From Halostella salina (GTDB lineage: Archaea > Halobacteriota > Halobacteria > Halobacteriales > Natronoarchaeaceae): a stretch of 64,000 nt of DNA. The DNA lies in NCBI RefSeq assembly GCF_003675855.1, contig NZ_RCIH01000004.1:124001-188000 (forward strand). Direction: 5' to 3'. A program made the translations under genes and the position numbers. Numbering within the stretch: the stretch's first letter is position 1; each line of letters begins with the position of its first letter. The notes under the pieces were generated by a model that was given only the letters and a program-made list of their open reading frames with translations, made no database searches and had not been told where the DNA came from. This document shows positions 30,233 to 49,665 of this stretch, one piece after another.

Positions 30233-30305
30233 CGAACGCTCCCGAACAGACCTCTACGGCCGGGCGGACGGCGAGGTCCCGACGCGGGCCGAGCCGTCCA
30301 ACCCG

Positions 30306-30479
30306 GGGGAGGGCAGGCTGGCGGCGGTCGTTGGTTGTGGAGGCGAAGCAGACGAGCATACGCCGCCGGAGGCGGCGTTTCCCCGGACGCGGCCGGCGGC
30401 CGCGTCCGGCCTTTTTGATCGACATTTTTTGCGCGAGTGGTCGCCGCAGGCGACCCGAGCGTCAAAAAAGGTCGTCTTA
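30306..30479. repeat. Structured dispersed repeat, copy A
   Basis: A 174-base element sharing its order of motifs with copy B at 47198-47378: GGGGAGGGCAGG, then GCATACG, a 7-bp hairpin CGCCGCC-GGA-GGCGGCG, a 12-bp hairpin (arms 30385-30396 and 30400-30411), GGCCTTTTTGATCGAC, a 7-bp hairpin GGTCGCC-GCA-GGCGACC, and AAAAAAGGTCGT-TTA. The terminal TTA is the stop codon (TAA) of the minus-strand glycosyltransferase gene, so that gene runs straight into GACGACCTTTTTT, a U-tract suited to archaeal termination. GGCCTTTTT and AAAAAGGTC can pair and close the last domain. The first hairpin shows paired changes relative to copy B. Confidence 0.85.
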
Positions 30480-31376
30480 CCGCCAGTCGTACCGCTCGAC
30501 CACGCGGTCGTGGCGGTTGTCGAGGCCGTGAGGGTTGCCGTCGTCGTCGGCCTTCCGGGCGGCGAGGCCGTCCTTGCTCCCGCCGACGATGCCCCGGACG
30601 ACGCTGCGCCCGTTGCCGAGCCACGCGGACGGCTCCACGTCGCCCCGCACCACGTCCTTGGCGACGGCGACGGCGTCCGAGACGGCGAGCCCGAGCATCC
30701 GGCGCGGGACGCTCGGGTGGACGCCGTAGTTCTTGCAGAGCTGGTAGGCCAGCGAGCGGTGCCGCCAGCCCCAGTCGTGCTCCGTGCGGCCGCCGTCGGC
30801 TCCGTACTCGCCGCGAACGCTCATCTCGGGTGCCCAGGCGACCGACCGGTCCGCGCGGGCGAAGCGATGGGAGGCGTCGCGCGCGCCGCCCCGTTCGAGA
30901 TACTCGTCGAAGCCGTCGATCGCCTCGATGGCGTCGCGGGCGAAGACGACGTTGTTCCCGTTGAAGAAGGTGACCGAGCGCCCGGCGTACGTGCGCGTTT
31001 CCTCGTCCTCGGTGGTCATTCCGGCCCGGAGCGTGCGGTGGGTGGGTCCCGTCACGGCGTCGACGCCGTCCGCCAGCGCGTCCGCGGCGGCGTCGTACCA
31101 CGACGGCTCGACCGCGAGCCGGTAGTCGACCACTGCGACGGCGTCGCCCGTCGACGCGCCGATGCCGGCGTTCCGGGCGACGTTGACGTTGCGGTCCGAT
31201 ATTTCGAGCAGGAGGTCCACGTCCTCGCGCTCCCGGACCATCCCCGTGGTGCCGTCGGCCGAGGGGCCGTTGACCACGACCACCTCGGCGTCGGGAACGT
31301 GGTCGGCGAGCGCGTCGAGGGACCGCTCCAGTTGCTCCCGGCCGTTGAGCGTCGGAACGACTACCGAGAGCTCCAT
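30477..31376 (-). CDS. Family 2 glycosyltransferase
   Basis: A 299-residue GT-A-fold protein. The N-terminus MELSVVVPTLNGRE is the nucleotide-sugar-binding strand, followed by VVVVNGPSADGT and NVARNAGIGASTGDAVAVVD; the metal-binding motif, usually DxD, is reduced to VVDYR. FNGNNVVFARDAIEAIDGFD is the acceptor-site region. There is no membrane anchor. Donor and acceptor sugars are unknown. A minus-strand TATA-like TCTTTTAAC lies about 27 bases upstream of the ATG. Its stop codon is the first three bases of a structured repeat (copy A). The next minus-strand gene upstream encodes a methyltransferase but has a separate promoter. Confidence 0.9.
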   Translation of the reverse strand: MELSVVVPTLNGREQLERSLDALADHVPDAEVVVVNGPSADGTTGMVREREDVDLLLEISDRNVNVARNAGIGASTGDAVAVVDYRLAVEPSWYDAAADALADGVDAVTGPTHRTLRAGMTTEDEETRTYAGRSVTFFNGNNVVFARDAIEAIDGFDEYLERGGARDASHRFARADRSVAWAPEMSVRGEYGADGGRTEHDWGWRHRSLAYQLCKNYGVHPSVPRRMLGLAVSDAVAVAKDVVRGDVEPSAWLGNGRSVVRGIVGGSKDGLAARKADDDGNPHGLDNRHDRVVERYDWR

Positions 31377-33312: not shown

Positions 33313-34086
33313 ATGAACGCCATCGAGCGAGTCGCCGTCGCGGTGCCCAGCGCACCCGGCGGCACGACGAACGCGTATCTCGTCGGGGACGATCCGGCCC
33401 TGCTGGTCGACCCCGCGGCGCGGAGCGACGCCCTCGACGCGGCCGTGGCGGAGCGTCCCGTCGACCACGTCGCGGTCACGCACGCCCACCCCGACCACGT
33501 CGGCGGCGTCGCCGCGTACGCCGACGCCTGCGACGCGACCGTCTGGTGCCGGGCCGGACGCGCCGCGCGGTTCGAACGCGCGGCCGGCGTCGCGCCCGAC
33601 GAGACGTTCCGCGAGGGGGCCGTCCTCCCCGTCGCCGGCGGCGTTACCGTGCTCGACACGCCCGGTCACGCCCCTGACCACGTCGCGTTCGCCGTCGGGG
33701 ACGACGTGCTGTCGGGCGACCTCGCCGTCGCCGAGGGGAGCGTCGCGGTGGCCGCGCCGGAGGGTGACCTGCGGGGCTACCTCACCGCGCTCCGCCGGCT
33801 GTACGCCCGCGACCCGGCGCGATTGCTCCCGGGGCACGGCCCCGTCATCGACGCGCCGCGCGAGGTGCTGGAACGGCTCCTCGCCCACCGCACGGACCGC
33901 GAGGCGTCCGTGCTGCGGGCCGTCCGCGACGGCGCGCGCACCGTCGACGAGGTCGTCGACGGGGCCTACGAGAAGGACCTGACCGGCGTCCGCGAACTCG
34001 CCGCGGGGACCGTCCGCGCACATCTGGCGAAACTGGCCGTCGAGGGCCGGGTCGACTGGGACGGCGAGCGGGCGACGCCACGGTGA
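33313..34086 (+). CDS. MBL-fold metallohydrolase (LACTB2-like)
   Basis: A 257-residue metallo-beta-lactamase-fold protein. The Zn ligands are in THAHPDHVGG, with further ligands in DTPGHAPDHVAF, the Asp in SGDLAV and the His in LLPGHGPVI. The C-terminal 60 residues (VLRAVRDGARTVDEVVDGAY) form a winged-helix-like extension seen in LACTB2-type enzymes, which include ribonucleases and glyoxalase-like thioesterases. Substrate not determinable. Ordinary length for the family. No operon partner: the next gene begins 67 bases later with its own TATA-like patch. Confidence 0.9.
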   Translation: MNAIERVAVAVPSAPGGTTNAYLVGDDPALLVDPAARSDALDAAVAERPVDHVAVTHAHPDHVGGVAAYADACDATVWCRAGRAARFERAAGVAPDETFREGAVLPVAGGVTVLDTPGHAPDHVAFAVGDDVLSGDLAVAEGSVAVAAPEGDLRGYLTALRRLYARDPARLLPGHGPVIDAPREVLERLLAHRTDREASVLRAVRDGARTVDEVVDGAYEKDLTGVRELAAGTVRAHLAKLAVEGRVDWDGERATPR

Positions 34087-47147: not shown

Positions 47148-47197
47148 TACGGCCGGCGCGAGCCCGCGGCGCTTGCACGCGCCGCGGGCGAGCGGAC

Positions 47198-47378
47198 GGG
47201 GAAGGGCAGGTTAGCAGCTGTCGGTTACAGTATAGCAAGCATACGGCGGCGGAGCCGCCGTTTCACCCCGAACGAGCGCAGCGAGTGAGGGGCCTTTTTC
47301 ATCGACGTTTTTGCCGGGAGGGTGCCCGCAGCAGGCCGACGGCCTGCGAGGACACCCGACCGGGAAAAAGGTCGTTTA
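47198..47378. repeat. Structured dispersed repeat, copy B
   Basis: A 181-base element with the same motif order as copy A: GGGGAAGGGCAGG, GCATACG, 7-bp hairpin CGGCGGC-GGA-GCCGCCG, GGCCTTTTTCATCGAC, hairpin GCAGGCC-GAC-GGCCTGC inside GGGTG/CACCC, and AAAAAGGTCGT-TTA. The final TTA is the TAA stop of the minus-strand aCPSF1 gene, exactly as in copy A. In the first hairpin the central stem bases are swapped on both arms relative to copy A (CGCCGCC/GGCGGCG there), so pairing is kept while sequence changes. The variable middle hairpins differ in sequence but keep their position. Confidence 0.85.
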
Positions 47379-49307
47379 TACGAAGCGGAACGTTTCCAGG
47401 TTCTTCGGCGCGAACGTCCGCATGTTGTAGTCGTGGTACAGCGCCGACGAGAGGTCCTGCACCGACGACTCGTCGCCGTGGACGCAGAGCACCTTCTCGG
47501 GGCGGGGGTTCATCGTCTTCACGAAGTTCTCCAGCCCCTGCCGGTCGGCGTGGCCGGAGAAGCCGTCGACGGTCTCGGTTTCCATCTTCAGCGTGAGCGT
47601 GTCGCCGCCGCGGCGGCCGCCGTTGCCCCGGTCGTCGATGGGGATCTCGTCCCAGCCGCTCTGGATGCGGCTACCCAGCGTCCCCTGGGCCTGGTAGCCG
47701 ACGAACGTGAGGGTGTTGTCGGGGTCGCTGCCGAAGTGGCGGAGCCAGGACATGATGGGGCCGCCCTCGATCATGCCGGAGGTCGAGAGGACGATGCAGG
47801 GCTCGCCGTCGGCGACCTCGCGGCGCTCCTCCTCGCCGCCGTCGATGTGGTTGAACTGGTCGGCGAGGAACGGGTTCTCGTCGTCGTGGAAGATGCGGTC
47901 ACGCAGGTCGTCACGGAGGTACTCGGGGTAGGTGGAGTGGATGGCCGTCGCCTCCCAGATCATGCCGTCGAGGTGGACCGGCATCTCCGGGATGTCGCCG
48001 TTTCGCATGGCCTCCTCCAGCACGAGCATCATCTCCTGGGAGCGGCCGACGGCGAACGCCGGGATGAGCACCTTCCCGTCGCGGTCGTACGTCTCGTTGA
48101 TGACCTCCTTCAGCTTGCGCTCGGAGTCCTCCTGGTCGGTCTGGTAGTCGTTGCGACCGCCGTAGGTGGATTCGAGCACGAGCGTCTCGACGCGCGGGAA
48201 GTCGTTGACCGCGCCGTTGAACAGGCGGGTGTCGTCGTAGTGGATGTCGCCGGAGAAGGCGACGTTGTACAGGCCGTCGCCGATGTGGAAGTGGGAGACG
48301 GCGGAGCCGAGGATGTGGCCGGCGTTGTGGAGGGTGAGCTTCACGTCCGGCGCGATGTCGGTCACGTCGCCGTACTCAAGCGGGATGGTGTGTTTGATCG
48401 CCTCGCGGACCATCTCGGAGTCGTAGGGGGGTGCGCGGCCCTCCTTGGCGGCCACGTCGAGGTAGTCCAGCTGGAGCAGGCCCATCAGGTCCCGGGTCGG
48501 CTCCGTCGTGTATATCGGGCCGTCGTAGCCGTACTTGAACAGGAGGGGGATGAGCGCCGAGTGGTCGAGGTGGGCGTGTGTGAGGACGACGGCGTCGATG
48601 TTCTGCGCGCCCGCGCCGAGCGCCTCGGGCACCTGGAGGTACGGCACCTCGCCCTCCGCGCCGGGCTTGTCGCCGCAGTCGATGAGGATGCGCGTCTCGG
48701 GCGTCGAGAGGACGAAGGAGGCGCGCCCGACCTCGCGGCAGCAGCCGAGCGTGGTGATCCGGACGTACTCCTCGTCGGACATCTCCTCGCGGTGGATCTG
48801 CCGGCCGACGCGCTCGAGCACGTCGCGGCGGTCGTCGCGTTCCTGCTTGAGGAAGTTCCGGACGTTCGAGACGGTGGAGGACTCGATCGGCGGCGTGCGG
48901 ACGACCTCGGGCGTCCAGCCGACCTTCTGGGTGATCTCCCGGAGCGTCGAGCCGTGGCGGCCGATCACCATGCCGGGTTTCTCGGCCTCGATGACGACCT
49001 CGCCGGTGTCGGCGTGGAAGTCGAGGTCGGTCACGCCCGCGTCCTCGGGGATGACGTTCCTGATCTGCTCGCGAGCGTCGCGGGGCTCGGAGAGCACGTC
49101 CGGGTCCGGGCGGACGGTGATTCGCTTGCGGAGCTTGCTGGCGAGCTGTCGGATCAGGTCGCCCTTCTGCGCGAACTTCTTCGGGTCGCGGGTGTACACG
49201 ACGAGCTCGGGGCCCTCGTACTTGACGTCGGACACCGAGATGTCGTTCGGCAGTTCGCTCGTGATCTCTTCGTGCAGGTCGTCGAGTTGTTGTTCAACGG
49301 AACTCAT
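47376..49307 (-). CDS. aCPSF1/FttA beta-CASP ribonuclease (transcription termination factor)
   Basis: A 643-residue protein with the full archaeal layout. Two N-terminal KH domains come first (residues 1-140; EAEKPGMVIGRHGSTLREI). The metallo-beta-lactamase core has VLTHAHLDHSA and further Zn ligands HNAGHILGSAVSHF and FSGDIHYD. The beta-CASP domain contains VETLVLESTYGGRN and PAFAVGRSQEMM. A C-terminal metal-binding His lies in VDGFSGHADRQG. In archaea aCPSF1 (FttA) cuts nascent RNA 3' ends at U-rich sites and terminates transcription. The start at 49307 (MSSVEQQ) matches the usual N-terminus. Its own stop codon merges with a structured, U-tract-bearing repeat, a fitting though unproven context for self-regulation. 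Confidence 0.95.
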   Translation of the reverse strand: MSSVEQQLDDLHEEITSELPNDISVSDVKYEGPELVVYTRDPKKFAQKGDLIRQLASKLRKRITVRPDPDVLSEPRDAREQIRNVIPEDAGVTDLDFHADTGEVVIEAEKPGMVIGRHGSTLREITQKVGWTPEVVRTPPIESSTVSNVRNFLKQERDDRRDVLERVGRQIHREEMSDEEYVRITTLGCCREVGRASFVLSTPETRILIDCGDKPGAEGEVPYLQVPEALGAGAQNIDAVVLTHAHLDHSALIPLLFKYGYDGPIYTTEPTRDLMGLLQLDYLDVAAKEGRAPPYDSEMVREAIKHTIPLEYGDVTDIAPDVKLTLHNAGHILGSAVSHFHIGDGLYNVAFSGDIHYDDTRLFNGAVNDFPRVETLVLESTYGGRNDYQTDQEDSERKLKEVINETYDRDGKVLIPAFAVGRSQEMMLVLEEAMRNGDIPEMPVHLDGMIWEATAIHSTYPEYLRDDLRDRIFHDDENPFLADQFNHIDGGEEERREVADGEPCIVLSTSGMIEGGPIMSWLRHFGSDPDNTLTFVGYQAQGTLGSRIQSGWDEIPIDDRGNGGRRGGDTLTLKMETETVDGFSGHADRQGLENFVKTMNPRPEKVLCVHGDESSVQDLSSALYHDYNMRTFAPKNLETFRFV

Positions 49308-49665
49308 AGTGAGAACTGAGTAGCGTCGTCGGGGTCTTCCGGTACCGGTGGGCCGCTCGCGCTCCGCCGCCGGCCGGCCGCGGGGGTCCCGCGGTCGGCG
49401 TCCCGTGAGACGGACTACAGCAGTCCGTAGCAGGCGGTTCGTCACTGTGTCGTAACACGGTACACATAGCGATATCGTCCCGGTTGTGTGTGGGTAGCGC
49501 GTCGGTCGAGGCGCTCGGGGATCGGTCCCACGATGCGCGGGAAGGTCCGGAAGAACCCGCTTACTCGGCCATATTACTTCCTTGTTATAAAAGCCTTCGC
49601 AATACCGGGCAGTCGCGGGGCCGTCGCCCGAAGCGTATTGCCCGGTCGTGCCCTACGGTCCCACG
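49308..49665. other. 358-base divergent intergenic region
   Basis: No gene is seen. It includes the promoter region of aCPSF1, an AT-rich stretch with TTGTTATAAAAGCC at 49583-49596, and an 8-bp inverted repeat ACCGGGCA (49604-49611) / TGCCCGGT (49639-49646) placed just before the hypothetical gene starting at 49666. GCGTATTG near 49634-49641 is a TATA-like box about 27 bases before that gene. Confidence 0.55.

Follow-up and report, generated by a model that had tools for sequence, protein, structure and literature searches.

Two copies of a structured, non-coding repeat lie in the window (the whole 64,000-nucleotide stretch of Halostella salina DNA that was analysed), each abutting the stop codon of a minus-strand gene. 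Copy A follows a glycosyltransferase gene and copy B follows the gene for the beta-CASP ribonuclease aCPSF1 (FttA). The features of the two loci, with the evidence for each, are as follows.

30257–30318, plus strand: copy A left module, terminal hairpin GGACGGC/GCCGTCC and GGGGGAGGGCAGGC motif (pattern search)
30355–30479, plus strand: copy A core, H1-H2-T5-H3 to the host stop (R1 covariance model match, E 2.8e-22, with A absent from the seed; G000:C4:154355-154479 in genome coordinates)
30361–30377, plus strand: copy A hairpin H1, CGCCGCC-GGA-GGCGGCG (sequence; covarying helix 1)
30383–30409, plus strand: copy A hairpin H2, GC-rich, directly followed by GGCC/TTTTT (sequence; fold)
30412–30416, plus strand: copy A T5 tract, readable by transcription from the left (sequence)
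30420–30474, plus strand: copy A hairpin H3, CGAC-A-TTTTTT ... AAAAAA-G-GTCG (fold; covarying helix 3)
30477–31376, minus strand: copy A host gene, glycosyltransferase, 299 aa (TAA at 30477–30479)
47150–47210, plus strand: copy B left module, terminal hairpin GCCCGCGGCGC/GCGCCGCGGGC and GGGGAAGGGCAGG motif (sequence; pattern search)
47238–47379, plus strand: copy B core (R1 match, E 7.2e-33, with B in the seed; DNA alignment with A)
47244–47260, plus strand: copy B hairpin H1, CGGCGGC-GGA-GCCGCCG (sequence; covariation)
47303–47374, plus strand: copy B hairpin H3, long form, CGAC-G-TTTTT ... AAAAA-G-GTCG (sequence; folds)
47376–49445, minus strand: copy B host gene, aCPSF1 (FttA) (TIGR03675, 972 bits; TAA at 47376–47378)

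A first-pass annotation had placed the copies at 30306–30479 and 47198–47378 with one order of motifs in common, and both are present there in that order. As it had also proposed, the right edge of each copy is the TAA of the minus-strand gene, followed on the gene strand by CGACC and then five or more T (TAA-GACGACCTTTTTT and TAA-ACGACCTTTTT); the T tract of copy A begins 8 nt past the stop codon. Two details required correction. The closing pair had been misidentified: the true closing helix joins CGAC-x-TTTTT with AAAAA-x-GTCG and runs on into H3 (30420–30430 with 30464–30474 in A; 47303–47312 with 47365–47374 in B), and GGCCTTTTT is a second T tract just outside this stem rather than a stem partner. 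The left edges had been set too short, as the element runs via the GGGGRAGGGCAGG motif to a terminal GC hairpin, reaching ~30257 in copy A and ~47150 in copy B. On the plus strand, the complete unit begins with the terminal GC hairpin, GGGGRAGGGCAGG, a variable stretch, AGCATACG with hairpin H1, and TTTC; continues through one or more H2 hairpins, GGCC TTTTT N-AT, stem a′ CGAC, x, TTTTT and stem b; and ends with GAG..stem c..CGA, stem b′, AAAAA, x and stem a GTCG. Between this GTCG and the stop codon of the minus-strand gene lie 0 to 6 nt, and the gene strand beyond the stop reads CGACC(T5)C. Elsewhere in the window, ARAGORN calls a tRNA-Arg within a coding region (33498–33591) that Rfam does not confirm and that is probably spurious.

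Range of the family and conserved pairing

The unit belongs to a dispersed family of folded elements, 100–300 bp in size. A DNA search of the H. salina genome returned 47 matches, several of which often cover different parts of one copy, with a second copy at E down to 9e-32, far beyond chance; sequence from this genome was read in stretches around the matches. The covariance model R1, seeded with 13 own-genome copies and with copy A left out, recovered copy A at E 3e-22 and, with it included, a total of about 27 sense copies in this genome, although model E-values are rough; the first model alignment omitted copies A and L003, whose T6 stems were shifted by MAFFT. Four other species of the genus carry 11–23 R1 matches apiece (23 type I copies in G002, 11 in G003; sister types are treated below). 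Across the class Halobacteria, 200 of 242 genomes and 67 of 74 genera have an R1 match at E ≤ 1e-5. As a control of specificity, a phylum-wide draw gave matches in 16/24 genomes of the same order and 0/124 others. A pattern scan of named genomes located the unit in Haloterrigena, Natrinema, Natronococcus, Natronorubrum, Halovivax, Halomicrobium, Haloarcula, Natronomonas, Halorientalis and Halomarina; the same scan gave a few chance matches in bacteria, where the structure is absent. An Rfam search of the window and both copies returned no family match above the gathering score in or near A or B, and plasmid and phage collections searched in distant DNA mode returned no match to the element. 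As far as we could find, the family is undescribed in the library (Rfam) and papers searched.

Folded as RNA, copy A has z-scores of −4.0 and −3.9 on its two strands and copy B has one of −4.2; copy B reaches −5.2 when folded as DNA. Between the two copies, H1 differs by the exchange of two base pairs on both arms, from which compensatory change in the first hairpin had been proposed; class-wide, the column pair in question indeed reads CG in 41, GC in 36, AU in 4 and UA in 2 cases. In the class-wide alignment of 114 matches, which was fitted to the model and includes a few antisense rows, double changes occur in 24 of 28 named pairs, double-changed cells number 412 against 137.9±7.4 after shuffling, and 93.6% of cells are paired compared to 42–53% with slid partners. 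When only the seed set is taken and MAFFT aligns it with no use of the model, the result agrees (31 double-changed cells against 10.0±2.0). Pairing is thus maintained by compensatory change in large excess over shuffles, and the lack of such excess, which had been named as counter-evidence, did not appear. The closing triplets by the T tract also vary by clade (CGA/TCG, CCA/TGG, GTA/TAC, GGA/TCC, GAA/TTC), always with the complement on the other arm, and unpaired loop letters are conserved as well (TCGGG / CNCTC, AAAAAGG). G-U pairs make up 1.6% of paired cells compared to 6.4% in tRNAs of the same loci (Fisher P 8e-5, indicative only as cells are not independent), with no clear bias to either strand (G-U versus A-C asymmetry of 37 against 20). 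The low share points to a duplex that is read in its DNA form, or on each of its two strands.

Position at gene ends and displaced 3′ ends

The distance from element to stop codon was surveyed for 185 instances in 22 genomes, with the upstream coding frame assigned by amino-acid composition (our own scoring). Of 182 inspected copies, 119 have their T4-6 tract starting 0–15 nt past a coding stop, and 143 have such a stop within reach; the distances peak sharply at 4–8 nt (mode 7). Most of the others can be accounted for: three directly follow tRNA 3′ ends (tRNA-Leu, -Ser and -Arg in G099), 19 have the displaced gene ends described below, and five are near-identical intergenic copies in G017. 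About a fifth of those inspected lie at neither a stop, a tRNA nor a displaced end. Among 232 control genes around loci from the taxonomic family of H. salina, T5 lies ≤15 nt from the stop in 34, of which 29 are element-like. The model matches thus favour gene 3′ ends, without the unselective scatter that would have spoken against a link, and the idea of a terminator-like module set in register at gene 3′ ends is borne out by their position. A fixed left border at the stop of the convergent gene was considered and rejected, given distances of 2–414 nt. Because only the T5 end is anchored and the far end is not, the unit is polar with respect to the host gene.

Host genes include those for transcription factor S (TFS), EngB, EF-2, SRP54, PAN, RadA, IF-2 and aCPSF1, and they recur between genomes. 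Specifically, 12 of 14 hosts are common to G002 and H. salina (P 9e-27). In other taxonomic families, 17 of 62 hosts belong to the 34 host groups of the H. salina family, compared to 0.6 expected; the P values treat genes as independent. Similarity is 0.676 for orthologous copies across families, 0.672 for non-orthologous copies and 0.725 for copies within one genome, the latter being more alike than cross-family orthologues in 40 of 51 pairs. Together, recurring hosts and a within-genome likeness exceeding that of orthologues indicate that the sites are either kept or visited again, whereas homogenisation of the sequence proceeds genome by genome.

Further evidence comes from the copies, 63 in number, that lack a host gene at their T5 border. 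In 19 of these, the 3′ end of the gene on the H1 side is repeated at the T5 border, compared to 0 with random pairing. The 16 aligned loci, a minimum for this class, share one arrangement. An intact gene has its stop at H1 or close to it and is followed by the element; 0–7 nt beyond GTCG begins a second copy of the end of that gene, which mostly retains a stop codon of its own. The repeated end covers the last 21–123 nt of the gene, and the duplications as a whole vary from about 21 to 127 nt. Differences between the two copies number 4 at first, 5 at second and 39 at third codon positions (39/48 at the third), such that both were under coding constraint before the event and the diverged end came in with the element. 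Mobility is therefore supported, as the element can arrive accompanied by a further copy of the gene's 3′ end, and plain tandem duplication is excluded as a general cause by the synonymous divergence. This route of arrival is documented for a minority, as a displaced gene end occurs in only 2–3 of about 119 stop-anchored copies; behind such copies, C-terminal remnants showed no excess over control except at L045 (PAN, GGYPDYAY*/GGHSDYSY*). Target genes recur across families among the displaced-end loci (tails ..YFAKSY and ..VVERTPxA).

Successive events are also visible. At L251 (G099, C1:416624 region), the order gene, element, displaced end, element, displaced end records two insertions stacked on one another, and tandem copies lie 144–174 bp apart at G008 C1:953681/953825 (L080), G168 C1:2561066/2561240 and G006 C1:335871/336026. 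Genome G017 holds five near-identical intergenic copies (L262–L265, L268). The G017 copies share ~10 bp upstream (TCANTACAGCC, found also near the other end) and perhaps represent a recently active lineage. Features of MITEs were not found, as the ends differ in place of terminal inverted repeats and the duplications are variable and diverged rather than fixed-length target duplications.

Proposed function, transfer and alternative readings

We consider it probable that these copies represent a class-wide, mobile, REP-like element of gene 3′ ends in Halobacteria, which supplies a terminator and enters with a diverged gene end. The T5/A5 hairpin is a plain feature of the copies; from it and from the loci above we infer both the role in termination and the mechanism of transfer. 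In a reporter of Haloferax volcanii, 95% of transcripts end at T5C (PMC7237163), and the T5(C) next to the stop would therefore most simply be the transcription terminator of the host gene. The T5 tracts of the other strand would end transcription arriving from the opposite side, with the GC hairpin between them separating the two. FttA reportedly needs U-rich RNA some 23–36 nt behind the polymerase (PMC11616081). Speculatively, the polymerase would then stand inside H3 when FttA acts, U5 would be hidden in the stem once A5 had been made, and H3 might in this way time cleavage. With regard to transfer, the end products suggest that the unit may enter new genomes as [diverged gene 3′ end – stop – element], with one junction in the homologous gene and the other exactly where the element ends with T5. 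This would restore the reading frame and displace the old 3′ end. Entering in this way, the unit could spread with its host gene retained, and could turn up at the same genes in more than one family.

An unlikely alternative is a conserved, vertically inherited bidirectional terminator with no mobility, in which likeness among copies reflects selection on the same signal. The conserved housekeeping hosts across families would fit, as would a GC palindrome flanked by T5 tracts on both strands and the convergent gene opposite 69 of 122 stop-anchored copies. However, the remaining 53 of 122 are not between convergent genes, and homogenisation within genomes extends to H1, H2 and linker letters for which a T5 terminator has no need. 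Nor would vertical inheritance explain the displaced gene 3′ ends, the near-identical intergenic copies in G017, the tandem copies in G008 and G168, or the different types carried by aCPSF1 in sister species. We regard as quite improbable a REP/BIME-type repeat moved by a Y1 transposase (RAYT, IS200/IS605-like) acting on the hairpins, like the PATEs of Haloquadratum. The element is palindromic, non-coding, multi-copy and without terminal inverted repeats, REPs of E. coli likewise lie ≤15 nt from stop codons (PMC12306157), and PATEs are known from haloarchaea (PMC3119063). Y1_Tnp (PF01797) is present in H. salina, partly with internal stops, yet it is absent from G002 and G003, both 99% complete and rich in type I copies, so that a Y1 transposase is unlikely as a universal mover. 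Furthermore, IS605-type insertion neither duplicates nor displaces gene ends, and it is at stop codons, not at a short target word, that the copies found are anchored.

The remaining readings have little probability. A slight chance may be given to template-switch (quasi-palindrome) correction, rather than selection, keeping the palindromes perfect, with only the T tract functional. As this predicts, double changes (31) far outnumber single changes of the G-U type (2) in the own-genome set. Against it stand the conservation of the arms class-wide and in position relative to the stop, and that of unpaired loop letters. It is very improbable that the unit works as a small RNA or as a structured regulatory RNA of the 3′ UTR. 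Stable folds on both strands, strong covariation and tandem G-A letters (GAG/CGA) in the plus-strand internal loop are compatible with such an RNA, but the rarity of G-U pairs without a clear strand bias better suits a DNA palindrome, and the downstream hairpins lie past the expected 3′ end. The earlier suggestion of a small-RNA family accordingly finds no support: no AT-rich, promoter-like stretch adjoins the unit, G-U is rare, and the unit is anchored to a host gene. Similarly remote is the prospect that the hairpin makes ribosomes stall, or come off, at the stop codon, a role put forward for E. coli REPs ≤15 nt away; the hairpin begins 0–6 nt past the stop, and at aCPSF1 a sister type has the stop codon inside its stem, but tRNA genes bear the same unit and translation is thus not required.

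Against this background, the mobile gene-end element may be compared with known systems. The REP/BIME repeats of Enterobacteria are also multi-copy, non-coding palindromes enriched near stop codons (≤15 nt class; PMC12306157). Relative to these, the spacing from the stop is far tighter, and several hairpins are combined with T5/A5 in one stem; moreover, the element is class-wide, its hosts are conserved between families, and it has displaced gene ends. It is a short, dispersed, extragenic palindrome in the sense of REP, and none of the copies printed has, by eye, a GTAG-like tetranucleotide at the stem foot. The element works like a REP-type repeat turned gene-end module, yet it fails one defining test of REPs, as G002 and G003 have no Y1 transposase (RAYT) in the genome. 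The PATE/SMR repeats of Haloquadratum walsbyi are likewise small, transposase-free, palindrome-bearing and mobile in haloarchaea (PMC3119063), but they derive from IS605-type ends and are not described as stop-anchored, a separation made by description rather than by sequence. Archaeal T-tract (T5C) terminators and FttA-dependent termination, in which FttA favours U-rich RNA upstream of the polymerase (PMC11616081), share the T5C just past the gene end, and a T tract stands at gene 3′ ends here also, type II excepted. Ordinary T-tract terminators, unlike the element, are neither repeats nor mobile, and they lack a conserved, covarying hairpin of which one arm is A5. A further parallel lies in integrative elements that rebuild the 3′ end of the gene they enter, as with tRNA integrases and e14/P21 at icd. 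These similarly bring in a synonymously diverged 3′ end, leave the gene intact and displace the old end; the insert here is, by contrast, only some 100–250 bp plus a gene end, without an integrase, in many different genes and with a variable restored length (21–123 nt). If the proposed reading is correct, a large share of haloarchaeal gene ends would be defined by one homologous, moving module, transcription termination would be linked to horizontal transfer, and an enzyme-free element could enter genes without breaking them. The T5/A5 hairpins, with bidirectional ends and placed behind tRNA and mRNA alike, offer test objects for how archaeal RNA polymerase and FttA stop.

Sister types and the aCPSF1 gene

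Two further types (II and III) in the H. salina genome are marked by the same GGGGRAGGGCAGG end, the left module being common to all; a pattern search for this module returned 33 sites compared to 8 for a backward control. Type III is near type I but has T4. Type II has no T tract and begins GAAAGCCC.. directly at the stop codon, with its start −1 to +2 nt from the stop of a long frame in 9 of 12 printed copies (own-genome examples C2:244990, C1:335487 and others, L099–L123). Since type II occupies the same place without a T tract, a T5 terminator cannot be the whole of the shared function. At three further own-genome sites (C2:492352, C7:120810 and C13:422; L110, L122, L125), GCCTGCCCTCCCCCG and the terminal hairpin module stand alone, with the rest of the element missing.

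The type II model R2 matched in 12 of 145 genomes of the class, and in six genomes of family f4 (G012, G037, G053, G082, G097, G146) the single match coincides with the stop codon of aCPSF1. When 3′ ends of aCPSF1 were surveyed, the pattern was matched in 138 of 391 genomes, with ~25 type II and ~8 type I/III starts counted by eye; type II occupies the aCPSF1 stop in several families. The aCPSF1 gene is followed by type II in G001–G004 and by type I (copy B) in H. salina. At these type II sites the stop codon lies within the stem, a TGA stop giving the stem TGAAAG/CTTTCA, and in G082 the stem TTGTAAAG/CTTTACAA indicates that a change of stop codon was compensated on the other arm. The first-pass annotation had raised a cut site for aCPSF1; type II at aCPSF1 is the single most suggestive link to that idea, and it is silent on cleavage. 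Possibly, type II acts as a 3′ autoregulatory element of the termination factor gene, a specific hypothesis that would be raised for FttA if this holds. We offer only tentatively, as a doubtful extension, a new kind of minimal homing element: a non-coding, enzyme-free hairpin that would spread between haloarchaea with a diverged copy of the last codons of its host, restore the frame, displace the old end and terminate that host, its sister type having begun at aCPSF1/FttA, with the stop codon held in the stem, and perhaps feeding back on it. Eight genomes (G047, G064, G119, G230, G426, G428, G494, G510) have two aCPSF1 C-terminal pattern matches each, which suggests a second aCPSF1-like gene in family f3 with the element on some copies only. 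In G004 (C8:6973-8894), aCPSF1 is read in two overlapping frames, reflecting a frameshift or an assembly error.
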